Positions 43,790-57,208 of a DNA stretch of 64,000 nucleotides are shown here, piece by piece; position 1 is the first letter of the stretch, and the number at the start of each line of letters is the position of its first letter. The translations under genes and the position numbers were made by a program. The stretch comes from Halopseudomonas litoralis. GTDB taxonomy: Bacteria; Pseudomonadota; Gammaproteobacteria; Pseudomonadales; Pseudomonadaceae. The stretch lies in the NCBI RefSeq assembly GCF_900105005.1, contig NZ_LT629748.1, positions 2,232,001 to 2,296,000 on the forward strand. The letters run 5' to 3'. The notes beneath the pieces were generated by a model, which saw nothing but the letters and a program-made list of their open reading frames with translations, ran no database searches and was not told the DNA's origin.

Positions 43790-44149
43790 TCAAACCTCTC
43801 CCCGAAACAAAACACTGTTCATCTCAGCCAGATTCTCCGCCAGCCGCAACGCTTCCTCTGAAGGCATCTGCCGAATAACATCGCCAGTACTCGCCTCCGT
43901 CACCTTCACTACCATGCGCCCACTTTCATCATCCAGCTGAAACTGGATATTCCTAGCAGCCACATCCACATATTCCTGCATCTCCTCCACCGCCGCCAGC
44001 ACCTGCTCGCGGTCCGGTTCGGTCATGCTGTCATTCTCCCGCGTCTCGCTCGCCGGTTGGGCGACAGTCACGGCTGTTATCTCGTTCGTTCTGGCAGCAG
44101 GCGCAACAGCCCCCACCCCAGCCCTGTTGTTGAGCGATCCCATATCCAT
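43790..44149 (-). CDS. flaG: Flagellar protein FlaG
   Basis: A 119-residue protein with an N-terminal low-complexity part and the FlaG domain from about residue 45: VLAAVEEMQEYVDVAARNIQ, FQLDDESGRMVVKVTEASTG, DVIRQMPSEEALRLAENLAE. FlaG influences filament length in Pseudomonas and Vibrio. It lies 73 bases after fliC, with a hairpin between them, so it probably receives partial read-through from the fliC promoter. Confidence 0.9.
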   Translation of the reverse strand: MDMGSLNNRAGVGAVAPAARTNEITAVTVAQPASETRENDSMTEPDREQVLAAVEEMQEYVDVAARNIQFQLDDESGRMVVKVTEASTGDVIRQMPSEEALRLAENLAEMNSVLFRGEV

Positions 44150-44173
44150 GGTTTTTCCTCCACACAGGACAAA

Positions 44174-44201
44174 GCGGGAGAAGAGTCGCCCCTTCCCCCG
44201 C
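44174..44201 (-). terminator. Attenuator-like hairpin between fliC and flaG
   Basis: Leftward GCGGGGGAAG, an 8-base loop, CTTCTCCCGC (one G-T pair), then CTTTGTCC. The stem is good but the T run is short, consistent with partial termination that gives much fliC and less flaG mRNA. Confidence 0.5.
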
Positions 44202-44222
44202 CAGTCATACTGCTAGCTTACC

Positions 44223-46550
44223 TTAGCCCAGCAGGCTGAGGACCGCTTGCGGCAGTTGGTTGGCCTGAGCCAGCATCGCAGTACCCGCCTGCTGCATGAT
44301 CTGGTTCTTGGCCAGGTTGGCAGACTCTGCAGCATAGTCGGTGTCCATGATGCGACCGCGGGCGGCAGAAGCGTTCTCAGCAATGTTCTGCAGGTTGCTG
44401 ATGGTGGAGTCGAAGCGGTTCTGCACCGCACCCAGCTTGGCGCGTTCGCTGTCGATTTGCTGCATGGCACCGTCGAGGACCTGGATGGCTTGTTGTGCGC
44501 CTTCGGCTGAGGTGATGTCGAGGTTAGAGACAGAGACCTCTTCCTCCACACCCTCAAACTTGCCTTCAGGTGCCGCTTCAACTGTGGTCTTCAATCCTAG
44601 CGCGGCCAGACCGGTACCGTCAGCACCGTCCTTGACCGTAAAGGACTCATTGCCCGAGAACAGCTCAAGCGTACCGTCACTCTTTACACTGGCGCTGACG
44701 CCGGTGCTGGCAGTGTTGATTGCAGTAGCAACCGCTTCCATATCGCTATTAGCAGCCAGCTTGACTTCAGTACCGTTCAGGTTGATCGAGGTGGCTTCCT
44801 GCAGCTTGGCTGAGGTGGTGCCAGAGGTCAGACCGATAGTACTCAGCGAGCCCGCAACATCATCAGCCAGCTCGATGCTCTCGCCCTTACCATCAGAGGA
44901 AGACAGCACCACGCGCCCGTTCTCGTCTTTAGCCGTCACGCCGGTTTCCGAAGTCTGATCGTTGATCGACTTCACCACCGCCGTAATATCATCACCCTTA
45001 TTGAAGGAGATGGTGACATCGTTGAGCTTGAAGCTGCCATCTTTGGCTGCGCCGCCGTTGGAGGCTGCACCTGCTTCGACCGGCCTAGGGGTGGATCCCT
45101 CAGTCAGCCCCAGAGCATTGCTGGTAGCGCTGGCGACAATGTTGAAATCAACCTTCGAACCCAGTGCGAGTTCGCCCTGATCATTCACCGACGCTGTCAC
45201 ACCAGTAGTAGTGGTGTGCTCATTAATCTTCCCGACTACATCAGTCAGCGTATCGCCTGCGTCTAGCGTGATGCCGGTTTCACCAATGGTGAGGTCACCT
45301 GCGGCACCTACGTCAAGAATTGCGTCACGCAGGTTTGTGGTGCCGGTGACACTACTCCGAGAGGCAGCTCCAGTGGCATCGGCAACCAAGCCAGTGTTAT
45401 TGCCAGCACCAGTAACATTAAAGGCTGAAGTACCTTGCAGCTTCAGAGCACCGGTCTCAGCATCCACACTCGCGGTTACGCCGGTATTTGTGGTGTGCGC
45501 ATTGATCTGCTCAAGAACACCGCCGGCACCTTCAAGGCGACCGGTTCCACCTTCTGTTGGCGCCAGTTCAATATCGGTTACCGTACCACCAACATTCAGG
45601 CTAAGAGTGCCGCTGACTTTTGGCAGTGTAAACGCGCCTGCTGACCTGTCCTCAGCAGGCGTATTGCCAGTTGTCAATCCCAACGCCTCACTGGTAACGC
45701 TAGCAGTGACGGCAATGCTGTAATCCGAACTCAACTGAATATTACCATCGTCAGTAAGCTCAGCGTTTACACCAGTGGTAGAGGCTCGTTCGTTAATTTT
45801 TCCAACTACCGCTTCTGCATCGTCTCCTTCTGCCAGAGCTATATTGATGCCATTCAGATTCAGATCACCTGCGGTTGTGTCGCTCAGGGTAGCAGGTGGG
45901 GTCCCCACGATCGACGCATCACTCGACACTGCTATAGAAGCACCCGTCGCAGTAGACGGCGCGAATTTGTTGGCTGCACCTGTAACCGATGCACTCAGCA
46001 TGCTTTCCCCACCGCTGACCTTGGCCGAGCTGAAGCTGCCTTTCAGCGCAGAAGCACTCACACTGCTCAGACCAAAGGACACTGTCTCGTTGGCATTGGA
46101 GCCGATCTGGAAGCTGGTATTACCCATGGAGCCGTCAAGCAGCTTCTTGCCACCGAAGGCAGTGGTTTCGGAGATACGGGTCAGCTCACCGGACAGCGAG
46201 GAGAATTCCTGTTGCAGAGCGGCACGCTCGGTTTCGCTGTTGGAACCGTTGGCCGATTGCAGAGCCAGGTCACGCATACGCTGCATGATGTTGGTCGATT
46301 CCTGCATCGCACCTTCAGCAGTCTGAGCGATGGAAACGCCGTCGTTGGCGTTCTTCACCGCCACGTTCAGACCATTGATCTGGTTGGTCAAACGGTTGGA
46401 AATCTGCAGGCCAGCCGCATCATCTTTCGCGCTATTGATCTGCGAACCGGTGGACAGACGCTCCAGCGAAGTAGCCAGTGCGTTGGTAGAACCACTCAGG
46501 TTACGCTGAGCGTTCAGGGAAGCAATATTGCTGTTTACTGTAAGAGCCAT
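44223..46550 (-). CDS. fliC: Flagellin with repeat-expanded central domain
   Basis: A 775-residue flagellin; Pseudomonas FliC is usually about 390-490. The conserved D0/D1 ends are intact: residues 1 to about 175 ([40 protein letters not shown]) and about 690-775 ([39 protein letters not shown]). Between them lie about five related units with a flagellin-IN-type core, at roughly residues 246 ([14 protein letters not shown]), 344 ([14 protein letters not shown]), 436 ([14 protein letters not shown]), 523 ([14 protein letters not shown]) and 604 ([12 protein letters not shown]). These would form a large surface-exposed domain. A sigma-28 promoter lies about 100 bases upstream. Confidence 0.95.
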
Positions 46551-46647
46551 GAAGTAGTTCTCCGTTGACCAAAATCAATGTTTGCCTGAGCTTGCGACTC
46601 ATGGGCCGGTCATCCCCAGGCACCCATAATGTTCGCGTTCAATCTCG

Positions 46648-46674
46648 TTATCGGCGTAGTGGCCAGGAGCTTTA
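46648..46674 (-). promoter_or_regulatory. Sigma-28 (FliA) promoter of fliC
   Basis: Leftward TAAAGCTC (46674-46667), 11 bases, GCCGATAA (46655-46648). The consensus is TAAAGTTT-N11-GCCGATAA, so the minus-10 element is perfect and spacing exact. Confidence 0.92.
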
Positions 46675-47012
46675 ATCTTTTTCAGGAAAATTTTTCTGAC
46701 ACCTTGACAGCCCCAAAAGCAACCGCCGCCGACACTCAAGGTATCGGACGTCAGGACAAAACCTTTAGCCCTCCTTTGGGGCAGGTTTAATTGGGGTCAG
46801 ATGAGTGTTTAGCCCGGGCGCGCTTCAGGAAAAAAGGGTCAGGTACATCTACGCACTGACCCGGTGGATGCGGTGATGAAGGCCTTAGGAGTGGACAGAA
46901 ATTGAACGAAGTCAAACGATGTCAATAGCGTTCATGGCAATGTGGAATGAATCAACTTACCTATGGCATTCTACTCAGTTAATACATGAGAAATGCCCCA
47001 CTGAGGTTAAGC
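46675..47012. other. Gap between fliC promoter and accessory array
   Basis: This 338-base stretch contains no gene I can support. It holds a partial array motif (GGGGTCAGATGAG near 46793) and the first full but diverged motif at 46836-46850. Downstream of 46860 it becomes more AT-rich. This is where the core flagellar region ends and the accessory array begins. Confidence 0.5.
46836..46850 (+). repeat. Array motif copy 1 (diverged)
   Basis: GGGTCAGGTACATCT preceded by six A. It differs from the common form by one missing G and T to C near the end. It is the left border of the module that holds the IS-split small ORF. Confidence 0.7.
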
Positions 47013-47083
47013 ATGCCAAGCCAGCGTCCATTAAAGAAATTTGAAGTTACCTATAGCAATAAGAGTGGCGATGTGCGCCCTAA

Positions 47084-48273
47084 GGAAGGTCTGAAATACC
47101 GGCCATATGGGCGGCGATTATGACCTCGGCTCACAAAAAAAACATTTCAGGAACGATTTCATCGCCCTCAGTCGCGTTTTCAGCTCGTTGCAGCCCCTTT
47201 TCGGCCATCCAGGCCGCTGTACCCAGTACTCCGGGCGGATTTATCCTGCACTTAACAGCTGTTTTCGGGCCATCCATAGGTTGGCCAGGGCGAACAAGGT
47301 ATGCAACTGGGCCGTGTTCTTCGCCAGGCCCTTGTAGCGCACCTTGGTGAATCCGAACTGGCATTTGATCACTCGAAACGGATGCTCGACCTTGGCTCGT
47401 GTACTGGCTTTGGCCCGCTCGATTCGGCGCAAGCCTTTCTCGATCAGCTTGGTTTTGCTCAATGTCTTGAGCTTGCCTGGGCGCATCGCAATCGACCAGA
47501 CCACCTGCTTGCGCCCTTTGTGTTCATCCCGTTTCTGAACGCCGGTATAGCCGGCGTCACCGCATACATGGGTTTCTTCGCCATGCAGAAGCTTGTCTAC
47601 CTGAGTAACATCGCCCGCATTGGCCGCCGTCCCCACGAGACTGTGAACCAGCCCTGACTCAGCATCAACGCCAATGTGGGCCTTCATGCCAAAATAATAC
47701 TGGTTACCCTTCTTGGTCTGATGCATCTCGGGATCGCGCTTACCTTCTTTGTTCTTGGTCGAACTGGGTGCATGAATGATGGTTGCATCGACCACGGTGC
47801 CGTGGCGCAGCATTAGCCCGTGCTCACCCAGGTAACGATTGACCACTTCGAACAACGCCGTGGACAGGCCGTAGCGTTCCAGCAGCCGACGGAATTTGAG
47901 AATAGTGGTTTCATCCGGAATGCGATCAAGTTGAAGGCCCGCGAAGAGTCGCAAGATGGTGGTTTCATACAGCGCTTCTTCCATCGCTGGATCGCTGTAC
48001 CCAAACCAGTTCTGCATCAGATGAACTCGCAGCATCGCGTCGAGCGGGTAAGCAGGTCGACCACCTTCGCCCTTGGGATAGTGCGGCTCGATCAGCGCCA
48101 GCAATGGCTTCCAGGGAACCACTCGATCCATTTCCAGCAGAAAGCGCTCACGGCGGGTCTGCTTACGTTTACCAGCGTATTCGGCGTCTGCAAAGCTCAT
48201 CTGTTTCATGCGGTGGTCTCGAAAATGGCGCTGACGCATTTTACCTTTTCAGGAAGTCTTTTTCAGACCTTCC
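47084..48273 (-). mobile_element. IS5-family insertion sequence, copy A
   Basis: 1190 bp with terminal inverted repeats starting GGAAGGTCTGAAA, flanked on both sides by CTAA (47080-47083 and 48274-48277), the YTAR-type 4-base duplication typical of IS5 elements. It carries one transposase gene. It has the same length and the same transposase as copy B at 50898-52087, in the opposite orientation. It interrupts a small ORF. Confidence 0.93.
47241..48239 (-). CDS. IS5-family transposase (copy A)
   Basis: 332 residues; an internal start at 48209 (MKQMSFADAEYAGKRKQTRR) is the alternative. N-terminal DUF772-type helix-turn-helix region: MLRVHLMQNWFGYSDPAMEE. DDE catalytic residues lie in HGTVVDATIIHAPSSTKNKE (first D), HVCGDAGYTGVQKRDEHKGR (second D) and RAKVEHPFRVIKCQFGFTKV (E). 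The protein is identical to that of copy B. The frame is intact, so the element may be active. Confidence 0.94.
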   Translation of the reverse strand: MRQRHFRDHRMKQMSFADAEYAGKRKQTRRERFLLEMDRVVPWKPLLALIEPHYPKGEGGRPAYPLDAMLRVHLMQNWFGYSDPAMEEALYETTILRLFAGLQLDRIPDETTILKFRRLLERYGLSTALFEVVNRYLGEHGLMLRHGTVVDATIIHAPSSTKNKEGKRDPEMHQTKKGNQYYFGMKAHIGVDAESGLVHSLVGTAANAGDVTQVDKLLHGEETHVCGDAGYTGVQKRDEHKGRKQVVWSIAMRPGKLKTLSKTKLIEKGLRRIERAKASTRAKVEHPFRVIKCQFGFTKVRYKGLAKNTAQLHTLFALANLWMARKQLLSAG

Positions 48274-48337
48274 CTAAAACCACTATCGCCGTCGGCCCTG
48301 ACAATCGCTCCGTGAGGATTAGATTTGAAAGCAAAAA

Positions 48338-48354
48338 GGGGTCAGGTACATTTT
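48338..48354 (+). repeat. Array motif copy 2
   Basis: GGGGTCAGGTACATTTT preceded by CAAAAA and followed by CCGCCAAAAAACGACGGCAA. It is the left border of truncated olsB copy A. Copies 2-5 share the longer downstream sequence as well. Confidence 0.9.
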
Positions 48355-48365
48355 CCGCCAAAAAA

Positions 48366-48817
48366 CGACGGCAAGCTGAATGAACAGCGTTTCCCTAACA
48401 CACTGGCCTGTATCAATCAGACACCGCTATCATCCAAACAGCATCAAATATTCATCCAGTTGCAACAGGCCGTGAGCAGCAAGGGCTTTGCTCACGGACG
48501 CTGCGCTGGAGGTAATTTGATGACACAAGTGGCGCAGATGCGACAGGCCGCACCGGCCATCCCGCCCTCACCGCTGATCGAACTCACCACATGCCCTGAC
48601 GCTCTGGCGGGAGCCCAGGCCCTGCGCTACTGGGTGTTTGCCGAGGAATGCGGAGCCAGACTATCCACTCCCGTGGACGGGCTGGATATCGATGAGTTTG
48701 ATACGCACTGCGAACATCTGCTGGTGCGTGACCGGCTCACCGGTAACGTTGTGGCCACCACCCGGCTGCTGGATAGCGAAGGCTCCAAGCGTACTGGCAG
48801 CTTCTACAGCGGAGTTT
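48366..48817 (+). pseudogene. Truncated olsB 5-prime copy A
   Basis: This repeats the upstream region and first roughly 98 codons of the intact olsB at 52213. ATG is at 48520 after the same GGAGGT site, with MTQVAQMRQAAPAIPPS, ALRYWVFAEECGARLS, FDTHCEHLLVRDRLTGNV and TRLLDSEGSKRTGSFYS. Homology ends near 48812-48817, where GVYFFLT begins and the frame runs into the toxin gene on the other strand. The acyltransferase core is missing, so the product should be inactive. Several substitutions relative to the intact gene show some age. Confidence 0.85.
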
Positions 48818-48831
48818 ATTTCTTTCTGACC

Positions 48832-49146
48832 CTATCTATAGCGCTCCCGCCAATAGCCGGGCTTACGGGAGTGATGAGCCACCGCAATTACGATAACCTC
48901 ACCCGGTAGTTCAATCGCGACTATATCGTATGGGAAGCGATCCAGAATTAGTCGTTTTACCCCGGTATCAACAGCCTCTTTGCACAGCGGCGATAAGGGG
49001 ATGAAGTTTTCTTCGATAACGTCGATGGCGGCTTCAATAGTAGCGAAAAACTCGGCTCCAAGTCCGGGCTGTTCATATTCGTACCATGCCGCAGCCTCCA
49101 TGGCTTCCTGGGAGGCTTCTTCCAGTATCCTTACTGTACGCACCAT
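48832..49146 (-). CDS. ParE/RelE-family toxin (copy A)
   Basis: A 104-residue protein: VRTVRILEEASQEAMEAAAW, YEYEQPGLGAEFFATIEAAI, VKRLILDRFPYDIVAIELPG and IVIAVAHHSRKPGYWRERYR. The RFPYDIVAI and AVAHHSRKPGYW blocks are typical of ParE/RelE-type toxins. The start overlaps the antitoxin stop (TAATG). Its stop codon is followed, leftward, by GGTCAGAAA, an inverted partial version of the array motif. Copy C at 50217 differs at two positions only. Confidence 0.87.
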   Translation of the reverse strand: MVRTVRILEEASQEAMEAAAWYEYEQPGLGAEFFATIEAAIDVIEENFIPLSPLCKEAVDTGVKRLILDRFPYDIVAIELPGEVIVIAVAHHSRKPGYWRERYR

Positions 49147-49382
49147 TACTGGCCTATTCTCGCTCGCATCCTTGTCCGGAACTCATCGCGACTGAGCAAC
49201 GTGGCCTTTCCGCTTTTGACCTTAGCCACCCGGCGAATAATTTCACCGTTCCAGGCTTGCTCAACAGAGTCGTCGCCGGGGCCGTCCAGACTCATTATGA
49301 GTTCGCGAGCCAATGCTGCACGCTCCGACGCGGAGAGCGTGGAGATTTGGGAGCGCAGGTGGTCCAAAGTTTCGGTAGTCAT
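49146..49382 (-). CDS. Addiction-module antitoxin (copy A)
   Basis: 78 residues from ATG 49382 (GGAG 5 bases upstream): MTTETLDHLRSQISTLSASE, ERAALARELIMSLDGP, NGEIIRRVAKVKSGKATLLS, RDEFRTRMRARIGQ. This is the pattern of the small antitoxins called addiction module component (TIGR02574-like) that pair with ParE-type toxins. It is the first gene of the pair and would neutralise the toxin encoded just after it. Confidence 0.84.
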   Translation of the reverse strand: MTTETLDHLRSQISTLSASERAALARELIMSLDGPGDDSVEQAWNGEIIRRVAKVKSGKATLLSRDEFRTRMRARIGQ

Positions 49383-49421
49383 GGCGACTCCACAGGTGGC
49401 GATGCAGTTATGCAGCAAAAA

Positions 49422-49438
49422 GGGGTCAGGTACATTTT
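49422..49438 (+). repeat. Array motif copy 3
   Basis: GGGGTCAGGTACATTTT in the same orientation, preceded by GCAAAAA. It is the left border of truncated olsB copy B and sits 39 bases after the antitoxin start. Confidence 0.9.
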
Positions 49439-49445
49439 CCGCCAA

Positions 49446-49717
49446 AAAACGACGGCAAGCTGAATTGATCAGCGTTTCCCTAACATACTGGCCTGTATCA
49501 ATCAGACACCGCTATCATCCAAACAGCATCAAATATTCATCCAGTTGCAACAGGCCGTGAGCAGCATGGGCTTTGCTCACGGACGCTGCGCTGGAGGTAA
49601 TTTGATGACACAAGTGGCGCAGATGCGACAGCCCGCACCGGCCATCCCGCCCTCACTGCTGATCGAACTCACCACATGCCCTGACGCTCTGGCGGAAGCC
49701 CAGGCCCTGCGCTACCG
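49446..49717 (+). pseudogene. Truncated olsB 5-prime copy B (shortest)
   Basis: The same upstream region and GGAGGT site, ATG 49605, then about 38 codons ending at ALRYR, where array motif copy 4 follows at once (CGC-AAAAAGGGG). The break is earlier than in copies A and C. The product would be a short peptide ending in motif-encoded KKGSGTFSAK. Confidence 0.85.
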
Positions 49718-49723
49718 CAAAAA

Positions 49724-49740
49724 GGGGTCAGGTACATTTT
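49724..49740 (+). repeat. Array motif copy 4
   Basis: GGGGTCAGGTACATTTT directly joined to the end of olsB copy B on its left and beginning copy C on its right. The join shows the motif itself is one boundary of the event. Confidence 0.9.
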
Positions 49741-49747
49741 CCGCCAA

Positions 49748-50204
49748 AGACGACGGCAAGCTGAATTGATCAGCGTTTCCCTAACATACTGGCCTGTATC
49801 AATCAGACACCGCTATCATCCAAACAGCATCAAATATTCATCCAGTTGCAACAGGCCGTGAGCAGCATGGGCTTTGCTCACGGACGCTGCGCTGGAGGTA
49901 ATTTGATGCCACAAGTGGCATAGATGCGACAGGCCGCACCGGCCATCCCGCCCTCACTGCTGATCGAACTCACCACATGCCCTGACGCTCTGGCGGAAGC
50001 CCAGGCCCTGCGCTACCGGGTGTTTGCCGAGGAATGCGGAGCCAGACTATCCACTCCCGTGGCCGGGCTGGATATCGATGAGTTTGATACGCACTGCGAG
50101 CATCTGCTGGTGCGTGACCAGCTCACCGGTAACGTTGTGGCCACCACCCGGCTGCTGGATAGCGAAGGCTCCAAGTGTGCTGGCGGCTTCTACAGCGGAG
50201 TTTA
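49748..50204 (+). pseudogene. Truncated olsB 5-prime copy C
   Basis: It repeats the olsB leader and about 98 codons, breaking at the same place as copy A (FYSGVYFF). The start region is also damaged: ATG 49906 is followed by an in-frame TAG at 49921-49923 (MPQVA then stop). A second toxin-antitoxin pair follows exactly as in copy A, so the block olsB fragment plus TA was duplicated as a unit. Confidence 0.85.
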
Positions 50205-50216
50205 TTTCTTCTGACC

Positions 50217-50531
50217 CTATCTATAGCGCTCCCGCCAATAGCCGGGCTTACGGGAGTGATGAGCCACCGCAATTACGATAACCTCATCCGGTAGTTCAAT
50301 CGCGACTATATCGTATGGGAAGCGATCCAGAATTAGTCGTTTTACCCCGGTATCAACAGCCTCTTTGCAGAGCGGCGATAAGGGGATGAAGTTTTCTTCG
50401 ATAACGTCGATGGCGGCTTCACTAGTAGCGAAAAACTCGGCTCCAAGTCCGGGCTGTTCATATTCGTACCATGCCGCAGCCTCCATGGCTTCCTGCGAGG
50501 CTTCTTCCAGTATCCTTACTGTACGCACCAT
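50217..50531 (-). CDS. ParE/RelE-family toxin (copy C)
   Basis: 104 residues, identical to copy A except EFFATSEAAI for EFFATIEAAI and LPDEVIVIA for LPGEVIVIA. It has the same TAATG overlap with its antitoxin. The frame is intact. Near-identity with copy A means the two antitoxins are probably interchangeable. Confidence 0.87.
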   Translation of the reverse strand: MVRTVRILEEASQEAMEAAAWYEYEQPGLGAEFFATSEAAIDVIEENFIPLSPLCKEAVDTGVKRLILDRFPYDIVAIELPDEVIVIAVAHHSRKPGYWRERYR

Positions 50532-50767
50532 TACTGGCCTATTCTCGCTCGCATCCTTGTCCGGAACTCATCGCGACTGAGCAACTTGGCCTTTCCGCTT
50601 TTGACCTTAGCCACCCGGCGAATAATTTCACCGTTCCAGGCTTGCTCAACAGAGTCGTCGCCGGGGCCGTCCAGACTCATTATGAGTTCGCGAGCCAATG
50701 CTGCACGCTCCGACGCGGAGAGCGTGGAGATTTGGGAGCGCAGGTGGTCCAAAGTTTCGGTAGTCAT
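50531..50767 (-). CDS. Addiction-module antitoxin (copy C)
   Basis: 78 residues, differing from copy A at one position (SGKAKLLS against SGKATLLS). The sequence upstream of its start runs about 60 bases further before the next motif than in copy A. This suggests copy C keeps more of the original flank. Confidence 0.84.
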   Translation of the reverse strand: MTTETLDHLRSQISTLSASERAALARELIMSLDGPGDDSVEQAWNGEIIRRVAKVKSGKAKLLSRDEFRTRMRARIGQ

Positions 50768-50835
50768 GGCGACTCCACAGGTGGCGATGCAGTTATGCTA
50801 TCCCGATTCAGACCCCCTAACAAGGCGACCAAAAA

Positions 50836-50852
50836 GGGGTCAGGTACATTTT
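50836..50852 (+). repeat. Array motif copy 5
   Basis: GGGGTCAGGTACATTTT preceded by CAAAAA. It is the left border of the intact olsB-olsA module, now separated from olsB by IS5 copy B. Confidence 0.9.
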
Positions 50853-50897
50853 CCGCCAAAAGACGACGGCAAGCTGAATTGATCAGCGTTTCCCTAA

Positions 50898-52087
50898 GGA
50901 AGGTCTGAAAAAGACTTCCTGAAAAGGTAAAATGCGTCAGCGCCATTTTCGAGACCACCGCATGAAACAGATGAGCTTTGCAGACGCCGAATACGCTGGT
51001 AAACGTAAGCAGACCCGCCGTGAGCGCTTTCTGCTGGAAATGGATCGAGTGGTTCCCTGGAAGCCATTGCTGGCGCTGATCGAGCCGCACTATCCCAAGG
51101 GCGAAGGTGGTCGACCTGCTTACCCGCTCGACGCGATGCTGCGAGTTCATCTGATGCAGAACTGGTTTGGGTACAGCGATCCAGCGATGGAAGAAGCGCT
51201 GTATGAAACCACCATCTTGCGACTCTTCGCGGGCCTTCAACTTGATCGCATTCCGGATGAAACCACTATTCTCAAATTCCGTCGGCTGCTGGAACGCTAC
51301 GGCCTGTCCACGGCGTTGTTCGAAGTGGTCAATCGTTACCTGGGTGAGCACGGGCTAATGCTGCGCCACGGCACCGTGGTCGATGCAACCATCATTCATG
51401 CACCCAGTTCGACCAAGAACAAAGAAGGTAAGCGCGATCCCGAGATGCATCAGACCAAGAAGGGTAACCAGTATTATTTTGGCATGAAGGCCCACATTGG
51501 CGTTGATGCTGAGTCAGGGCTGGTTCACAGTCTCGTGGGGACGGCGGCCAATGCGGGCGATGTTACTCAGGTAGACAAGCTTCTGCATGGCGAAGAAACC
51601 CATGTATGCGGTGACGCCGGCTATACCGGCGTTCAGAAACGGGATGAACACAAAGGGCGCAAGCAGGTGGTCTGGTCGATTGCGATGCGCCCAGGCAAGC
51701 TCAAGACATTGAGCAAAACCAAGCTGATCGAGAAAGGCTTGCGCCGAATCGAGCGGGCCAAAGCCAGTACACGAGCCAAGGTCGAGCATCCGTTTCGAGT
51801 GATCAAATGCCAGTTCGGATTCACCAAGGTGCGCTACAAGGGCCTGGCGAAGAACACGGCCCAGTTGCATACCTTGTTCGCCCTGGCCAACCTATGGATG
51901 GCCCGAAAACAGCTGTTAAGTGCAGGATAAATCCGCCCGGAGTACTGGGTACAGCGGCCTGGATGGCCGAAAAGGGGCTGCAACGAGCTGAAAACGCGAC
52001 TGAGGGCGATGAAATCGTTCCTGAAATGTTTTTTTTGTGAGCCGAGGTCATAATCGCCGCCCATATGGCCGGTATTTCAGACCTTCC
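50898..52087 (+). mobile_element. IS5-family insertion sequence, copy B
   Basis: 1190 bp, the same ends as copy A (GGAAGGTCTGAAA inverted repeats), with CTAA duplications at 50894-50897 and 52088-52091. The empty-site sequence (TTTCCCTAACATACTG) is preserved in olsB copies B and C, so this insertion is later than, or absent from, the duplications. It sits 125 bases upstream of the intact olsB start. Confidence 0.94.
50932..51930 (+). CDS. IS5-family transposase (copy B)
   Basis: 332 residues identical to copy A, with the DDE residues in VVDATIIHAP, CGDAGYTG and KVEHPFRVIK. It is transcribed toward olsB. Internal start at 50962 is possible. Two identical intact copies 2.6 kb apart imply recent transposition. 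Confidence 0.94.
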   Translation: MRQRHFRDHRMKQMSFADAEYAGKRKQTRRERFLLEMDRVVPWKPLLALIEPHYPKGEGGRPAYPLDAMLRVHLMQNWFGYSDPAMEEALYETTILRLFAGLQLDRIPDETTILKFRRLLERYGLSTALFEVVNRYLGEHGLMLRHGTVVDATIIHAPSSTKNKEGKRDPEMHQTKKGNQYYFGMKAHIGVDAESGLVHSLVGTAANAGDVTQVDKLLHGEETHVCGDAGYTGVQKRDEHKGRKQVVWSIAMRPGKLKTLSKTKLIEKGLRRIERAKASTRAKVEHPFRVIKCQFGFTKVRYKGLAKNTAQLHTLFALANLWMARKQLLSAG

Positions 52088-52162
52088 CTAACATACTGAC
52101 CTGTATCAATCAGACACCGCTATCATTCAAACAGCATCAAATATTCATCCAGTTGCAACAGG

Positions 52163-52190
52163 CCGTGAGCAGCATGGGCTTTGCTCACGG
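52163..52190 (+). promoter_or_regulatory. Leader hairpin upstream of olsB
   Basis: CCGTGAGCA, a 10-base loop, TGCTCACGG: a 9-base perfect stem ending 10 bases before the GGAGGT ribosome site (52201-52206). The same stem occurs before all three truncated olsB copies. It could regulate translation or mRNA stability. There is no T run, so it is not a terminator. Confidence 0.5.
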
Positions 52191-52212
52191 ACGCTGCGCT
52201 GGAGGTAATTTG

Positions 52213-52974
52213 ATGACACAAGTGGCACAGATGCGACAGGCCGCACCGGGCATCCCGCCCTCACTGCCGATCGAACTCACCACATGCCCTGACGCTCTGG
52301 CAGAAGCCCAGGCCCTGCGCTACCGGGTGTTTGCCGAGGAATGCGGAGCCAGACTATCCACTCCCGTGGCCGGGCTGGATATCGATGAGTTTGATACGCA
52401 CTGCGAACATCTGCTGGTGCGTGACCGGCTCACCGGTAACGTTGTGGCCACCACCCGGCTGCTGGATAGCGAAGGCGCCAAGCGTGCTGGCGGCTTCTAC
52501 AGCGAAGGGGAGTTCCATCTGGTCGGACTGGCGCAGTTACGCGGCCCGATTCTGGAAATCGGTCGCACCTGCGTGCATCCGGACTACCGCAACGGCGCTA
52601 CTATCTCGACCCTCTGGTCGGGGCTGGCGCAATTGATGCGCGAACGCAATTACAGTTTTCTGATGGGCTGTGCCAGCATCGGCATGGGCGATGACGGTAT
52701 CCAGGCGCAGGCTGTCATGCAGCGGCTGCGCCAGCGCTATCTCAACCGGGAATGGCTGAACGCGGTACCCCGCCGTCCGCTGGCGGACATGCCCTTACCG
52801 GATAACGTGATTGCCCAGATTCCTCCACTTCTGAAAGCCTATGTACGGCTGGGCGCCACCCTCTGCGGCGAACCCTGCTGGGATCCGGAATTCAACGTCG
52901 CGGATGTGCTCATTCTGCTTCACAGCCAGCAGCTGTGTCCCCGCTACGCCCGCCACTTCAAGGCCGTTAGCTGA
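52213..52974 (+). CDS. olsB: L-ornithine N-alpha-acyltransferase (intact copy)
   Basis: ATG 52213 after GGAGGT (6-base spacing) gives 253 aa; a longer in-frame start at 52153 falls in the leader. Motifs: ALRYRVFAEECGARLS, HLLVRDRLTGNVVATTRLLD, GPILEIGRTCVHPDYRNGAT and FLMGCASIGMGD, typical of the OlsB GNAT-like family. OlsB transfers a 3-hydroxyacyl chain from ACP to ornithine, the first step of ornithine lipid synthesis. It is followed by olsA after 10 bases. IS5 copy B and array motif 5 sit just upstream, so its natural promoter may be disrupted. Confidence 0.9.
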   Translation: MTQVAQMRQAAPGIPPSLPIELTTCPDALAEAQALRYRVFAEECGARLSTPVAGLDIDEFDTHCEHLLVRDRLTGNVVATTRLLDSEGAKRAGGFYSEGEFHLVGLAQLRGPILEIGRTCVHPDYRNGATISTLWSGLAQLMRERNYSFLMGCASIGMGDDGIQAQAVMQRLRQRYLNREWLNAVPRRPLADMPLPDNVIAQIPPLLKAYVRLGATLCGEPCWDPEFNVADVLILLHSQQLCPRYARHFKAVS

Positions 52975-52984
52975 GAGCCGTTAT

Positions 52985-53761
52985 TTGAAACCTTTGCTGC
53001 GCCGCATATGGCGGCTCCCCTTGGTGACCAGCTGGGTACTGCTCGGCCTGCTGCTGGCAGGCCTGCTGCCGCTCTGGCCGCAAGCCAGGCGTCATGCCCT
53101 GTGCGAAGGCATGACCCTGTTCTGGATGCGCGGCCTGCTGCGTCTGTTACCACTGCGCATCCAGCGCCATGGCCAACCGATCGGCCACCCTGCTGTCTGG
53201 GTGGGCAATCACATTTCCTGGCTGGATATCATTCTGCTCGGCGCGGTGTCCCCGGTTCGCTTTATTGCCAAGGCGGAGGTGCGCCAATGGCCGCTGCTGG
53301 GCTGGCTGGCAGCAAGCGCCGGCACCCTGTTTGTGCGGCGTGGCCAGGCCAGTGGCGGTGACCTGTATCAGCAGATGACCGCTGCACTGCAACAGCAGCA
53401 AAGCCTGATGATCTTTGCTGAAGGCACCACCACGCCCGGAGCCGGGGTACGCACCTTCCATGGCCGCCTGTTGAGTTGCGCGGTGGAGCAACAAGTACCG
53501 GTACAGCCGGTAGCCCTGCGCTATTGCGAGCAGGGACAGCTATCCCGGACCGCCGCTTTTATCGATGACGACGAGTTCTCCAGCCATCTGTGGCAATTAT
53601 TGGGCAGCCCGACCATAGATGTGGAGCTGCATTTTCTGCCCGCGATCGACAGCTGCAATATCGAGCGTAACCCACTGGCCAGGCGTACCCGCCAGGCGGT
53701 GGTTCAGGCTCTGGGGCTGGACGACAGCAAGCCCGGCCAATCTGCCGACGCCGCCGCCTGA
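52985..53761 (+). CDS. olsA: Lyso-ornithine lipid acyltransferase
   Basis: The frame is open from 52841, but a TTG at 52985, just after the olsB stop, with GAGAG upstream, gives MKPLLRRIWRLPLVTSW (258 aa). One N-terminal membrane segment (WVLLGLLLAGLLPLW) precedes the PlsC acyltransferase motifs: VGNHISWLDIILL (HX4D), AKAEVRQWPLLGWLA and LMIFAEGTTTPG. OlsA adds the second, ester-linked acyl chain to finish ornithine lipid at the inner membrane. The olsB-olsA order is as in other pseudomonads. Confidence 0.88.
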   Translation: MKPLLRRIWRLPLVTSWVLLGLLLAGLLPLWPQARRHALCEGMTLFWMRGLLRLLPLRIQRHGQPIGHPAVWVGNHISWLDIILLGAVSPVRFIAKAEVRQWPLLGWLAASAGTLFVRRGQASGGDLYQQMTAALQQQQSLMIFAEGTTTPGAGVRTFHGRLLSCAVEQQVPVQPVALRYCEQGQLSRTAAFIDDDEFSSHLWQLLGSPTIDVELHFLPAIDSCNIERNPLARRTRQAVVQALGLDDSKPGQSADAAA

Positions 53762-53798
53762 GATTCGGCAAAACGGATCACCTGTGGCATGAATGCCA

Positions 53799-53818
53799 AG
53801 GAGTCAGGTACATTTTAC
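53799..53818 (+). repeat. Array motif copy 6 (diverged)
   Basis: AGGAGTCAGGTACATTTTAC. GGGG has become GGAG and the preceding A run is lost; the TCAGGTACATTTT core is intact. It is the right border of olsBA and the left border of the BrnTA module. The remaining 53762-54002 gap shows no gene. Confidence 0.72.
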
Positions 53819-53984
53819 CGGTATTCGGCATGGACCCCGGCTCTTCAGATACTGAGAACGCCCGCACATTCCTGCACCAGTCCACTTGATCCCATCACCA
53901 ATACCGCCAATGCTGTCCTTCCACCTTTCTCATGCTATCCGAAGCAGCCCTCGGGTGAGCTTCCGGTATAGCCGCCAAACTTTT

Positions 53985-53996
53985 TTGTAGATACAA
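53985..53996. promoter_or_regulatory. Palindrome upstream of brnT
   Basis: TTGTA-GA-TACAA, a perfect 12-base dyad ending 6 bases before the brnT start. BrnTA systems are autorepressed through palindromes in their promoter, so this is a likely operator half or whole site. Confidence 0.45.
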
Positions 53997-54002
53997 TTAA
54001 CC

Positions 54003-54272
54003 GTGAACATTGAGTTCGATCCAGCCAAGAATCAACGCAACATTATAGAGCGTGGGCTCCCTTTCGAGGAGGTAGCAGATTTCGAGTTCGAGAGCGCTTT
54101 GTTCTGGATAGATGATCGCAAGGACTATGGCGAGCAGCGCATCCGAGCCTTGGGCTATATCGGCAAGCGGCTCCACGCCTTGGTGTTTGCTGAGACGATG
54201 ACCGGCATCCGGATCATTAGTTTTCGCAAAGCTAACAGACGCGAGATAAAACATTATGAATCGCAAACCTGA
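54003..54272 (+). CDS. brnT: BrnT ribonuclease toxin
   Basis: 89 residues with a GTG start: MNIEFDPAKNQRNIIERGLP, FEEVADFEFESALFWIDDRK, GEQRIRALGYIGKRLHALVF, IRIISFRKANRREIKHYES. The FDPAKN start, GEQRIRALG and RIISFRKANRREIKHYE are the BrnT signature (RelE-like fold). No strong ribosome site precedes it, so translation may be weak. It overlaps brnA by 17 bases. Confidence 0.93.
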   Translation: MNIEFDPAKNQRNIIERGLPFEEVADFEFESALFWIDDRKDYGEQRIRALGYIGKRLHALVFAETMTGIRIISFRKANRREIKHYESQT

Positions 54273-54528
54273 CCCCGAGCGGCTCGATGCTGACAATCCC
54301 GAGTGGACTGCGGACGAAGTAGCCAACGCCAAGAGCTTCTCCGACCTGAACACGAGCCTACGCAAGAAACTGGCTAGCCGCACCCGCGGCCCACAGAAAG
54401 CGCCAACCAAGACTCAGGTATCTGTACGCCTGAGTACCGAAGTGCTTGACTACTTCAAAGCCAGCGGTAACGGCTGGCAGACGCGTTTGGATGAGGCATT
54501 AAAGGAGTATGTAAGGGAGCATCAGTGA
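54256..54528 (+). CDS. brnA: BrnA antitoxin
   Basis: 90 residues: NPEWTADEVANAKSFSDL in the N-terminal toxin-binding part and TKTQVSVRLSTEVLDYFKAS, GWQTRLDEALKEYVREHQ in the C-terminal ribbon-helix-helix-type DNA-binding part. It would neutralise BrnT and repress the operon. The stop codon is directly joined to GAAAAGGGGTCTG, a partial array motif, so the module ends at the array border. Confidence 0.92.
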   Translation: MNRKPDPERLDADNPEWTADEVANAKSFSDLNTSLRKKLASRTRGPQKAPTKTQVSVRLSTEVLDYFKASGNGWQTRLDEALKEYVREHQ

Positions 54529-54543
54529 AAAGGGGTCTGAAAA

Positions 54544-54559
54544 GGGGTCAGGTACATTT
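54544..54559 (+). repeat. Array motif copy 7 (with a partial copy at 54532)
   Basis: GGGGTCAGGTACATTT preceded by AAA; a partial GGGGTCTG lies 12 bases before it, so two motif starts are stacked. It borders BrnTA on the left and the IS66 remnant plus HicAB on the right. Confidence 0.88.
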
Positions 54560-54598
54560 GACCGTAAGGAGTTTGACGCAACGGTACGAGCATGAGCC

Positions 54599-54810
54599 CT
54601 GGATTACAGCCTGAAACGCTGAGTAGCGCTGACGCGCTACCTGGATGACGGTGCTGTGCCCCTCGACAACACTGGGTTGAAAACCAGGTCCGGCCTTGGG
54701 CCCTCGGCAGCAGCAACTGGTTGTTCGCCGGTTCGCTACGCAGTGGTCAACGGGCCGCTGCGGTGATGTCCTTGATCCAATCGGCCAAGCTGAATGGCCA
54801 TGATCCCAAA
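54599..54810 (+). pseudogene. IS66-family transposase (TnpC) C-terminal remnant
   Basis: Read in two frames it gives LDYSLKR, a TGA at 54620-54622 where Trp is expected, then VALTRYLDDGAVPLDN. After a frameshift near 54680 it continues WALGSSNWLFAGSLRSGQRA and VMSLIQSAKLNGHDP. This is the near C-terminal part of IS66 TnpC. Stop, frameshift and missing ends make it a dead fragment. It sits next to motif copy 7. Confidence 0.8.
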
Positions 54811-54820
54811 GCAAGTTGAA

Positions 54821-55219
54821 CTACTGCAGTGCCCGCAGCGACGCATCTGCGAGAAAGCCTGAGCGGCTTCTGTGCTCCGGATGATTCTTCACATATTCAT
54901 CAATCCGGGCCAACAGGTGCTCCGGCAAGGTTGCATTGAAGCGCACCGCTTTGCCCAGGTAAGGCGTTACATCAAAGTCCACCAGAGCCCAGACGCCATC
55001 AGCATACTCCGGGTCCACCACATGTATGTCCACGTCGTTCGCCTGCGGTAAGGGACTCCCATCCGCCACCAGCCCCTCGAAATGCAATGCCAGCGCTTCA
55101 CGCACATTATCCAGCGCTTCGGCCATGGTCTCGCCTGCAGAAAAGCAGCCGGGCACATCAGGCACGGTCACGCCGTACTCGCTGTCAGCCTCTTTGTGTA
55201 GCACTACAGGATATTTCAC
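54821..55219 (-). CDS. hicB: HicB antitoxin
   Basis: 132 residues: MKYPVVLHKEADSEYGVTVP, DVPGCFSAGETMAEALDNVR, EALALHFEGL, then RFNATLPEHLLARIDEYVKN and RSGFLADASLRAL. The N-terminal degraded RNase-H-like fold and C-terminal DNA-binding part are as in HicB. It lies 25 bases downstream of hicA in the usual hicA-hicB order. Confidence 0.93.
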   Translation of the reverse strand: MKYPVVLHKEADSEYGVTVPDVPGCFSAGETMAEALDNVREALALHFEGLVADGSPLPQANDVDIHVVDPEYADGVWALVDFDVTPYLGKAVRFNATLPEHLLARIDEYVKNHPEHRSRSGFLADASLRALQ

Positions 55220-55244
55220 TGTAAACCCTCCTGCATCGCCAGCA

Positions 55245-55427
55245 TCACTTGATACCAGCCTGCTTCAAAATACTATTGACCGTACCCTTTGGCAGGTCTG
55301 CCTTTGGGTGGGGAACGGTCACCCTCCCCGGTCGTTCTGGGTGCTTGAATTGATGGTGGCTGCCCTTCACGGCTACCTCATACCATCCATGTTCAATCAG
55401 CAGACCAATCACTTGTCTACTGCGCAT
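55245..55427 (-). CDS. hicA: HicA mRNA interferase toxin
   Basis: 60 residues: MRSRQVIGLLIEHGWYEVAV, KGSHHQFKHPERPGRVTVPH, PKADLPKGTVNSILKQAGI. The active-site histidine lies in GSHHQF within a dsRBD-like fold. AGGAG is 7 bases upstream. A direct repeat GTGTAT-N4-GTGTAT lies about 45 bases upstream and may be the HicB operator. Confidence 0.93.
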   Translation of the reverse strand: MRSRQVIGLLIEHGWYEVAVKGSHHQFKHPERPGRVTVPHPKADLPKGTVNSILKQAGIK

Positions 55428-55499
55428 CAGCGTCTCCTTGCTTGCCTGAGCCCACTATACACACCATACACACAAACAGGAAACGGAAAAGGGGAAAAA

Positions 55500-55518
55500 G
55501 GGGTCAGGTACATTTACG
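55500..55518 (+). repeat. Array motif copy 8
   Basis: GGGGTCAGGTACATTTACG preceded by GAAAAA. It is the left border of the Y1 transposase module, 130 bases before its start codon, and the right border of HicAB. Confidence 0.9.
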
Positions 55519-55647
55519 TTTATGCACTTACGATTGCGTTTTATCGTACCTTTTTGCACAAGATCACAGTTTAGCCGTCTACCGGTGTCAATTGACCGAG
55601 CCATGGTTCAATGTGAGCTGCTCAATCCATCCATGGAGGGTTATGCG

Positions 55648-56349
55648 ATGCCGCGTCAACCGCGACTGGAAGTCGTTGGGCTGCCACATCATATCGTGCA
55701 GCGGGGTGTCGACCGACAAGCCGTTTTCTTCGATCACCGGTGCTATCTGGAATATCTGCATCTGCTTGACGTGTATGCGAGCCACTTGGAGATGAGCGTG
55801 CATAGCTGGTGCCTGATGACCAACCATGTGCACCTGCTGCTGACCCCAACCATTCCCGGTACTCTCAGCCGGCTTATGCAGAACCTCAACCGGATGTATG
55901 TCCAGCGGATCAACACCCGCTTCGAGCGAACTGGACATTTGTGGGCTGGGCGATTCAAGGCAAGTGTGGTCGATAGCGACAGCTATCTGCTCAGTTGCAT
56001 GCGTTATATCGAACTTAACCCGGTACGGGCTCGGATGGTTGAACACCCCCGGAGCTATCCATGGAGCTCCTGGCATGCCAATGTCGGTGAGCGGCAATCC
56101 AGACTGGTAAACCCACACGCCGAATACACCGCCCTTGGCACAACGCCGACGGAACGTCAGGACAATTATCGAGCCTGGATCCTAAAGGATGAATCGGAAT
56201 GCATAACCGCTGAGCTGCGCAATGCCACTCAGCAGAACGCAGCCTTTGGGTCACCACACTTCGCCCAGCAAATCGAACAGATGCTCGGACGGGACGTGAC
56301 GGTCAAAGCACGTGGACGGCCCCGGAAGGGTGAAAAGGGGTCAGGGTGA
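55648..56349 (+). CDS. REP-associated (Y1, HUH) transposase
   Basis: From ATG 55648 (GGAGGG about 8 bases upstream) the product is 233 aa: MPRQPRLEVVGLPHHIVQRG, then the HUH motif in WCLMTNHVHLLLTP, FERTGHLWAGRFKASVVDSD and the catalytic tyrosine region YLLSCMRYIELNPVRARMV. This is the Y1_Tnp single-strand transposase family; absence of an IS200-type partner and the long C-terminus suggest the REP-associated (RAYT) group. The last codons, RKGEKGSG-stop, are encoded by a partial array motif (56337-56348). Full motif copies lie on both sides. Confidence 0.9.
   Translation: MPRQPRLEVVGLPHHIVQRGVDRQAVFFDHRCYLEYLHLLDVYASHLEMSVHSWCLMTNHVHLLLTPTIPGTLSRLMQNLNRMYVQRINTRFERTGHLWAGRFKASVVDSDSYLLSCMRYIELNPVRARMVEHPRSYPWSSWHANVGERQSRLVNPHAEYTALGTTPTERQDNYRAWILKDESECITAELRNATQQNAAFGSPHFAQQIEQMLGRDVTVKARGRPRKGEKGSG
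56337..56348 (+). repeat. Partial array motif inside the transposase 3-prime end
   Basis: GGGGTCAGGGTG, preceded by GAAAA. The core GGGGTCAGG is intact but TACATTT is replaced, and the transposase stop codon falls at its end. Confidence 0.75.
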
Positions 56350-56374
56350 AAAAAAGCAGAAAAGAAGGAGAAAA

Positions 56375-56391
56375 GGGGTCAGGTACATTTT
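56375..56391 (+). repeat. Array motif copy 10
   Basis: GGGGTCAGGTACATTTT preceded by GAAAA and followed by CCG as in copies 2-5. It is the right border of the transposase module and the left border of the Phd/ParE module. Confidence 0.9.
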
Positions 56392-56406
56392 CCGTGCGTA
56401 GCCAGG

Positions 56407-56706
56407 TCATGTTCCTCTTGCTGGTAACTCAAGTTGCCTCTCACTCCGCCAGACTCGAACGAGCACAACTTCATCGGCTTGCCTCAAGTAGACAACGCGA
56501 AAAGGCGCGTGAATGAGTTCGCGAATGTAACCCAGACTGAATTCCGGAACCATTCTGCCCGCGTCAGGGTGACACTGCAGCATTTCCGATTGCTTCAAAA
56601 TAGCGGTCACGTACTCGTCACCGATACCCGGCACATTCTGTTCTTTGTAGTACTCTTGAATAGCTTGCAAGTCTTCAAGGGCAGACTGTGCAATGCGCAA
56701 CTCCAT
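56407..56706 (-). CDS. ParE/RelE-superfamily toxin
   Basis: 99 residues: MELRIAQSALEDLQAIQEYY, VPGIGDEYVTAILKQSEMLQ, HPDAGRMVPEFSLGYIRELI, FRVVYLRQADEVVLVRVWRS. The RELIHAPFRVVYL and VVLVRVWRSER blocks are typical of ParE/RelE toxins. It is unrelated at sequence level to the duplicated toxins at 48832 and 50217. Its ATG directly follows the antitoxin stop. Confidence 0.9.
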   Translation of the reverse strand: MELRIAQSALEDLQAIQEYYKEQNVPGIGDEYVTAILKQSEMLQCHPDAGRMVPEFSLGYIRELIHAPFRVVYLRQADEVVLVRVWRSERQLELPARGT

Positions 56707-56976
56707 TTACTTGATGCCCAACTGCTGCTTGGCTTGCTCCAAGGAAACAGTGTTACCTTCACGAGCATCCATAAGCCCCTGCGCCACCGCCTTTACAAAC
56801 CGCAACTCCTCTGCAGTTCTCTCATAATCCTCGAGCCCCTGAACAACAGCTATTCCGCGGCCACGACTGGTAATCAGGATTGGACGATGGGTATCCTGGG
56901 CTCGACCAACCACCTTTCCGGGATTGATCTTCAAGTCTGAGAGAGGAATGACGTCTTCTGAGAATTTCACTTGCAT
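56707..56976 (-). CDS. Phd/YefM-family antitoxin
   Basis: From ATG 56976 the product is 89 aa: MQVKFSEDVIPLSDLKINPG, VVGRAQDTHRPILITSRGRG, AVVQGLEDYERTAEELRFVK. This is the Phd/YefM N-terminal DNA-binding fold followed by a toxin-binding tail. A longer in-frame start at 57012 is possible but would put the start next to the operator. No strong ribosome site is visible. Confidence 0.9.
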   Translation of the reverse strand: MQVKFSEDVIPLSDLKINPGKVVGRAQDTHRPILITSRGRGIAVVQGLEDYERTAEELRFVKAVAQGLMDAREGNTVSLEQAKQQLGIK

Positions 56977-57014
56977 GGTGGTAGCTACTTGGCTGGGAAT
57001 CGAGACCCACAATT

Positions 57015-57039
57015 AGCACCAGTTGACTGGTGCTGTCAA
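57015..57039 (-). promoter_or_regulatory. Promoter/operator of the Phd/ParE pair
   Basis: A perfect 20-base palindrome AGCACCAGTTGACTGGTGCT (57015-57034) overlaps, in the leftward direction, a consensus minus-35 TTGACA (57039-57034). It lies 39 bases upstream of the antitoxin start, just where Phd-type antitoxins bind to repress their operon. Confidence 0.7.
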
Positions 57040-57060
57040 GCAGGTGAAAAAGGCTCCGGT

Positions 57061-57082
57061 TAGATTTACCACCCCCCTTTTT
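57061..57082 (-). repeat. Possible degenerate, inverted array motif
   Basis: Leftward AAAAAGGGGGGTGGTAAATC resembles AAAAAGGGGTCAGGTACATT at most positions. It would be the right border of the array and the only inverted copy of this length. The match is weak. Confidence 0.3.
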
Positions 57083-57208
57083 CGCCACTTGATACCAAAT
57101 GAATCGGCTATGCTGGTATAGAAAGCTAAGCAAGGGGCCGCTTTAGCTTCTGGCCAGAATCTGTCATTGGCTTGCTCCTTTCCGCGCCGCGCATTACGGA
57201 AACCACCA

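Follow-up and report, generated by a model that had tools for sequence, protein, structure and literature searches.

Many of the repeats that accompany TIRYT transposases share the consensus GGGGWSAS (Di Nocera, 2013, PMC3733652), and in the TIRtrons described there a Y1 transposase gene is flanked by such repeats, which occur elsewhere as families, dimers and clusters; some of these terminal inverted repeats (TIRs) are partly or wholly self-complementary. The TIRYTs probably correspond to subclass 2.1 of the TnpAREP proteins (Quentin, 2018, PMC6006769), whose signature is NHVH with YIELNP and which was found in 14.9% of the strains surveyed; the available part of that paper assigns no function to the subclass and reports no repetitive extragenic palindromic (REP)-like sequences for it. 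Statements on these and the other papers cited refer to the available parts of their text. No cassette array, toxin–antitoxin (TA) module or gene capture is described for TIRtrons in the available part of PMC3733652, from which the word 'toxin' is absent. Here we analyze a stretch of 64,000 nt from Halopseudomonas litoralis (NZ_LT629748.1, assembly GCF_900105005.1, positions 2,232,001–2,296,000), hereafter the window, to which all coordinates refer unless otherwise stated. Between a flagellin gene and a sensor-kinase gene, and around the sole Y1 transposase gene of the genome, it holds a block of repeat-bounded modules that is likely a cassette array formed by a single-strand transposase without an integrase, current activity being a proposal only.

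Comparisons drew on 37 genomes of the genus and 390 genomes of the order, G000 being the genome of the window. The repeat was searched for as the 20-mer AAAAGGGGTCAGGTACATTT with at most three mismatches, against a background of 100 shuffles. Nine copies were found in 9.6 kb (46831–56390), all on the + strand and seven of them exact, compared with none in the shuffles. An earlier note on this DNA had claimed about ten same-direction copies; nine of nine do lie on the + strand, with a right half at 56333, and the positions it gave mark the G run, 3–5 nt further on. Two other right halves (54528 and 55487) had been missed. The repeat copies and related cores are as follows.

46793–46800, +, GGGGTCAG core of a different repeat family (GGGGTCAGATGAG), left rim of the array
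46831–46850, +, repeat copy 1, 2 mismatches
48334–48353, +, repeat copy 2, exact
48826–48832, −, GGGTCAG core from a separate repeat family, where an olsB fragment meets a TA pair
49418–49437, +, repeat copy 3, exact
49720–49739, +, repeat copy 4, exact
50211–50217, −, GGGTCAG core of another repeat family, at the second copy of this fragment/TA junction
50832–50851, +, repeat copy 5, exact
53796–53815, +, repeat copy 6, 3 mismatches, with a left half made up of neighbour-gene sequence
54528–54539, +, right-half repeat AAAAGGGGTCTG, stacked 5' of copy 7
54540–54559, +, repeat copy 7, exact
55487–55494, +, right-half repeat AAAAGGGG, stacked 5' of copy 8
55496–55515, +, repeat copy 8, exact; HicAB homology with G003 stops at its GGGGTCA
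56333–56344, +, right-half repeat, supplying the final codons of the transposase open reading frame (ORF)
56371–56390, +, repeat copy 9, exact
57061–57086, −, degenerate reverse repeat, right rim of the array, 77% complementary to 55491–55516 (which contains copy 8)

Across the genome, the exact 16-mer of the repeat occurs ten times, seven times in the array and three times in a second cluster on the other strand at 3.474–3.480 Mb, and allowing one mismatch adds four places, namely one within the array, a pair at 220 kb and a single copy at 2.335 Mb. The earlier note was right to set the repeat apart from ordinary REP clusters, as the exact copies are clustered in two places and not dispersed. 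The REP/REPIN–RAYT systems similarly pair a Y1 enzyme with cognate palindromic repeats, cleaved between C and T or between C and A by the enzymes studied (PMC8266576); the window repeat, however, has the core GGGGTCAG and no GT[AG]G hairpin foot, and its few copies bound gene modules.

Searches with Pfam and NCBIfam profiles recovered the families Acetyltransf_5, Acyltransferase, BrnT/BrnA, HicB/HicA, Y1_Tnp, ParE/Phd and Unstab_antitox between the repeats, the last with a ParE-like toxin that falls below its family cut-off. The best NCBIfam matches of the Acetyltransf_5 protein were the OlsB models, below their cut-offs. The modules, together with two insertion sequence (IS) copies of the IS5 family, are arranged as follows.

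47081–48276, −, IS5-family insertion interrupting a small ORF, identical inverted copy of 50895–52090
48520–48814, +, olsB 5' fragment 1
48832–49379, −, TA pair of a ParE-like toxin (sub-threshold) and Unstab_antitox (Pfam)
49605–49717, +, olsB 5' fragment 2, truncated immediately at repeat copy 4
49906–50199, +, olsB 5' fragment 3
50217–50767, −, second, near-identical copy of the ParE-like/Unstab_antitox pair (the Pfam scan was made on the first copy)
50895–52090, +, IS5-family insertion in the olsBA leader
52213–52974, +, intact olsB (ornithine N-acyltransferase-like)
52841–53761, +, acyltransferase ORF (Pfam) taken as olsA, start codon uncertain
53762–53805, +, sequence homologous to the 3' end of a putative acpH, ending at GGAGTC, where the rest of copy 6 starts
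54003–54528, +, BrnT toxin and BrnA antitoxin genes
54594–54807, no strand assigned, mobile-element remnant matching mobile-element DNA (putatively IS66, after the earlier note)
54821–55427, −, HicB antitoxin and HicA toxin genes
55642–56349, +, Y1/HUH transposase of the TIRYT type (NHVH, YIELNP), sole Y1_Tnp match of the genome
56407–57012, −, ParE toxin and Phd/YefM antitoxin genes

The repeats do mark module borders and the Y1_Tnp gene does lie between repeat copies, both as had been proposed. The description of one module per gap needs amending for the first gap, in which an IS5-family copy splits a small ORF, and the olsBA module described as intact is present but has its leader split by the identical inverted copy. 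These two copies enclose 2.6 kb of olsB fragments and TA pairs, which they could invert. Module genes are found on both strands while the repeats all point one way, so that repeat direction is not simply set by gene direction. The three olsB 5' fragments and the intact copy have a common motif-leader start, and in all four cases the left border is the repeat and the sequence upstream differs. The blocks made of an olsB fragment and a TA pair are segmental duplications with a spacing of 1385 bp. An Rfam scan of 44000–60000 gave a single match, sub-threshold and unrelated to attC: a CPEB3 ribozyme (55137–55232, E 0.015) that overlaps hicB and is probably due to chance.

Comparison with relatives places two breaks on the repeat core. 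The HicAB module, 87% identical between G000 and G003, ends exactly at GGGGTCA / AGAGGTCA. The other break is at the right end of olsBA. An olsB match was found in 30 of the 37 genus genomes (one of them weak and partial), and in G003, G036, G008 and G007 the end of olsA runs into a convergent gene, a putative acpH. The array copy of olsBA in G000 runs 44 bp past olsA into putative acpH sequence as far as GGAGTC, at which AGGTACATTT starts. Relatives have no full repeat at this break point. G007 reads AAGTCAG there, so that the core may have been partly present beforehand. At the native olsBA site of G000 (814.5–817.2 kb in the genome), both neighbour genes are kept, olsBA is lost and a short remnant of its ends is left, and the one full-length olsB match in the genome is that of the array. 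The olsBA scar lies near 815885–815909, between two neighbour genes (L127, G000:C1:811000–821000). The names acpH, MBL-fold neighbour, VOC gene and pilin are taken from reading translations, except for one pilin (L182) that matched Pfam Pilin.

Partial repeats stacked beside full ones are polar. Within 60 bp of 27 full copies, in 11 stretches, distinct right halves lie upstream nine times and downstream twice, and left halves never upstream and six times downstream; 15 of the 17 are thus on the side predicted by a right-end/left-end joint, if lost cassettes leave one end. The upstream right half in G003 (L114) is a poor match.

We give nearly an even chance to the reading that the array of modules, comprising four types of TA pair, the olsBA lipid genes and the transposase gene, grew by the Y1 transposase, or a relative of it, cutting the single-stranded repeat approximately between the C and the final A of GGGGTCA and joining module ends. 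The enzyme would cut the GGGGTCAG-type repeat at this point, and the right end of one module would be joined to the left end of the next, each full repeat being the place where a right end (...AAAAGGGGTC) meets a left end (AGGTACATTT...). Such a joint fits the cleavage of the TnpAREP enzymes studied, which is between C and T and, for one enzyme, also between C and A (PMC8266576). In IS608 the left end adjoins the target tetranucleotide (PMC6006769); with a target placed likewise next to the left end, a right end that doubles as the target for the next left end would have inserts added head to tail, extending the array. Host-gene sequence that happens to resemble the core, as with GGAGTC at the olsBA border, could act as a right end and lead to the capture of neighbouring host genes, and the TA pairs may favour retention of the array at its site. 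The IS200/IS605 family, to which IS608 belongs, is alike in its fold and in the HUH/Y1 catalytic motifs of the window protein. It differs in that the window protein has YIELNP in place of a Y and a Q separated by three residues, in that the genome has no second Y1_Tnp and in that unit movement is only proposed here. The most far-reaching version, in which a domesticated Y1/HUH transposase runs an integron-like capture array that extends itself head to tail, takes in core genes such as olsBA through chance GGGGTC-like sequences in host genes and is stabilized by TA pairs, appears rather unlikely to us.

Two congeners carry different TA-bearing arrays at the same flagellin site. The flagellin flank of G003 and G036 aligns with the window until 46771, beyond which all three genomes differ. 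In G003, the array contains HicA/HicB, ParD/ParE, Phd/ParE, RelE with a helix-turn-helix partner, PIN/Phd, BrnA and Unstab_antitox, together with a second HicB beside a hicA stretch that has a 33-bp gap relative to the window and a Y1 remnant truncated where a reverse repeat lies. Counted from the flagellin gene, the modules are ordered Y1 remnant, BrnTA, HicAB in G003 and BrnTA, HicAB, Y1 in G000. A loose scan gave seven full-length repeats in G003, six of them in the window's direction. The G036 array has five repeats, all +, and members of the ParE and YhfG families; the contig ends inside it.

The transposase itself carries N61-H62-V63-H64 and Y122-I-E-L-N-P, and in an alignment of 28 sequences N61, H62, H64, Y122, E124, N126 and P127 are invariant. 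By these motifs it is a TIRYT, or TnpAREP subclass-2.1-like, transposase, and it shares with that subclass (PMC6006769) NHVH, YIELNP, a length of ~235 amino acids with a C-terminal extension and a low copy number, the array gene being the one Y1_Tnp match of G000. We use the wording 'subclass-2.1-like' because one minor motif, W[EQ], is replaced: the window protein and its close relatives have WAGRFK, and most of the more distant sequences WE or WQ. A further difference is that REP-like sequences are missing from the subclass as described in the available text, whereas a covarying hairpin with a 13-nt loop is found here (see below). An AlphaFold2 model (predicted local distance difference test score, pLDDT, 89.6) has three helices after the core (residues 169–181, 186–197 and 205–215), and its best structural match was the REP-bound RAYT 4er8; no helix-turn-helix Pfam match was obtained in the protein at E≤0.001. 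The GGGGTCAG core stands on both sides of the gene, once upstream (55500) and twice downstream (56337 and 56375), and judged by this core the window repeat is of a known kind, the GGGGWSAS repeats of TIRYT/TIRtron transposases. The earlier reading holds in part; its border repeat is of a kind already described (Di Nocera, 2013). In contrast to TIRtrons, in which the repeats are inverted around the gene, those around the window gene are direct (both sides +) and separate unrelated modules. The 92% relative (L128, G008) has a − copy downstream.

Named genomes were scanned with the 28-sequence alignment, and the best 80 of 560 confirmed places gave 79 distinct loci. GGGG[TA]CAG reaches 2.84 copies per kb up to 300 bp from the gene, compared with 0.136 per kb at a distance of 3–8 kb. 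At least one copy lies within 300 bp in 57 of the 79 loci; the 8-mer finds none in 22, some of which have little flank. Over the 57 loci, upstream copies are 73 + and 5 −, and downstream copies 49 − and 4 +. From density and orientation, the core is therefore real and usually inverted around the Y1 gene. Five bases before GGGG pair with five bases after a 13-nt loop (131 copies), with 2.85 of 5 pairs formed compared with 1.96 for arms drawn from separate loci (z 9.6); with a loop of 12 or 14 nt, z is 3.7 or 0.4, respectively. The covariation score over six pairs, with one copy from each of 57 loci, is 0.425 compared with 0.194 after shuffling (reached in 0 of 500) and with 0.248 and 0.155 when the hairpin columns are slid by one; the shuffles ignore relatedness, which the one-column slides preserve. 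Unpaired cells make up 36% of the hairpin alignment, and a repeat copy of G036 folds well (z −5.6). TIRYT repeats are, on this sequence evidence, hairpins with a 13-nt loop backed by covariation.

Several of these loci also hold genes between repeats. A Thiodiazotropha metagenome-assembled genome (MAG) carries 36 GGGG[TA]CAG copies of several families (L185:6239–15381), 32 of them on the + strand; 32 copies lie >300 bp from the Y1 gene, and several gaps are a single ORF. In L138, L173, L181 and L183 (Pseudomonas and a Thiotrichaceae MAG), small genes occur in repeat-bounded gaps. Among the ORFs tallied, one has an Imm11 match, and a gap in L183 starts with an RHS-like fragment, as read from the translation.

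The exact 16-mer was found in 2 of the 390 genomes of the order, when the motif was followed into relatives as the earlier note had suggested: G000 and G315, the latter with one copy and a Y1 of 46% identity. Within the genus, at least three matches with at most one mismatch occur only in G000, G003, G008 and G036, while G007 and G034 have one match each, that of G034 apparently inside a coding sequence. Y1 proteins of 91–100% identity are present in G000, G008 and G003 (in the last as 88 residues only, truncated), and among the matches listed the identity in other genus genomes is at most 53%. The proposed tie between motif and transposase subfamily is therefore seen in three of the four repeat-rich genomes, the exception being G036. 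Viral contigs gave no exact 19-mer match. Plasmids gave Y1 relatives in four records (E limit 1e-50), all <60% identical, and array DNA from 53790 to 56420 gave matches in 827 plasmid records, each covering at most 80% of the query; among 20 of these matches listed, 3 cover HicAB and 17 the mobile-element remnant. An Azotobacter plasmid HicAB was considered and rejected: it has the genes in common with the array, but its match stops before the repeat.

Repeat copies occur in other settings as well. One lies less than about 30 nt from the stop codon of a Flp-pilin-like gene in G003, G008 and G036 (L114, L112 and, as a variant, L263), whereas a stretch of G025 has no copy after this gene; L108 and L110 have copies near type IV pilin-like genes. 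In the second cluster (L108, ~12600–12700 and 14150–14210) the TIRYT repeat adjoins a REP-like palindrome, ~30 bp of which are found again in several genomes of the genus. A second candidate for capture, a gene bounded by two repeats of that cluster (L108:12814–13392), has homologues at one shared locus in G035, G005 and G025. At 220 kb in G000, a putative glyoxalase/VOC gene is truncated at a repeat copy (L109:8275–8538).

A number of observations weigh against growth of the array by repeat cutting and joining. Only two module ends, HicAB right and olsBA right, are exactly resolved by comparison; the left ends are not, the olsBA leader being ambiguous and a mobile-element remnant lying left of HicAB, and BrnTA homology stops short of the repeats. 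The native olsBA remnant and the array copy have diverged, so that the move was not recent and the array copy is either old or from another lineage. No single-cassette empty site, of the kind that the earlier note proposed to look for, and no circular form or excision was seen in the comparisons. Nine of the 17 half-repeats come from one genome, G036, which also has repeats but no close Y1; the three window copies tested fold weakly (z −0.45 to 0.57); and some copies stand alone, for example directly after Flp pilin stop codons, so that a repeat does not have to mark a cassette border. Around a typical TIRYT gene the repeats are inverted and not direct. The linear same-direction order claimed earlier holds in the window (9/9) but is not general: in gaps of 250–2500 bp not enclosing the locus's own Y1 gene (n=50 over the 79 loci, a few enclosing another Y1 gene), 26 pairs are same-direction and 24 opposed, with no same-direction excess. 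Nor were TA families between repeats clearly enriched outside the genus in Pfam tallies. Matches to TA or HEPN/nucleotidyltransferase member families, some of which may fall in one protein, numbered 6 among 40 ORFs of same-direction intervals, compared with at least 2 among 40 length-matched control ORFs picked from 564 others (25 of 27 families listed). The cassette reading is well supported for the genus Halopseudomonas and, given these two results, is only a possibility at distant loci.

The rival that survives best is a passive hypervariable locus, a hot spot beside the flagellin gene where repeats are scattered between genes, TA genes arrive by horizontal transfer, homologous recombination between repeats duplicates and shuffles modules and the Y1 enzyme copies repeats only. 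We consider it possible, if on balance doubtful. It would account for the flagellin-side region differing in all three species directly after the shared promoter side, and it is in line with the single repeats downstream of pilin genes, the IS5-family copies and other mobile-element remnant within the array, the segmental duplication of the olsB-fragment/TA blocks and the balance of orientations at distant loci. It is harder to reconcile with the uniform direction of all nine repeats, the polarity of the half-repeats, the confinement of exact copies to two clusters and the breaks at the repeat core in two comparisons, one of them within a coding gene that has no full repeat in relatives.

An IS-driven composite, in which the two inverted IS5-family copies and their transposase built the olsB-fragment part with the repeats as bystanders, is improbable. 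Identical 1196-bp arms do flank the three olsB fragments and IS-end matches occur elsewhere in the genome, but module borders match repeats and not IS ends, there is no IS5 copy among the modules to the right of 53796, and the copies lie inside the small ORF and the olsBA leader and are therefore likely later than the modules.

Least credible, and very improbable, is an integron-like or other site-specific recombinase array, with the repeat as att site of an integrase elsewhere and the Y1 gene as one more cassette: same-direction, small TA-bearing modules whose order varies between species do recall chromosomal (super)integrons, and G036 has repeats without a close Y1, but the border repeat is of the TIRYT type, attC differs from it in size and hairpin, the core lies no more than 300 bp from the Y1 gene in 57 of the 79 TIRYT loci, so that the repeat belongs to Y1 biology, and, as the earlier note had held in setting the array apart from integrons, no integrase was found among the module ORFs scanned, the whole window and genome not having been searched for one.

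Growth of the array by the Y1 transposase joining module ends at its repeats would combine a transposase and repeat of known kind with an arrangement, a TA-bearing array with a defined joint, that seems to be new. Among the literature titles and abstracts searched, outside of which most subscription papers fall, none reports TIRYT repeats bounding TA cassettes. Within that literature, TIRYT repeats that separate TA-bearing modules, differing arrays at the flagellin site of two congeners, breaks on the repeat core and the apparent uptake of host olsBA seem to be new, and so, as far as the searches reach, are the loss of native olsBA, the polar half-copies and the covarying hairpin with a 13-nt loop. 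If subclass-2.1 enzymes do join modules at their repeats, they would represent a second cassette-collecting system in bacteria, independent of an integrase, and the role of domesticated RAYT-like transposases would become testable with a 28-nt substrate defined by the covarying hairpin.

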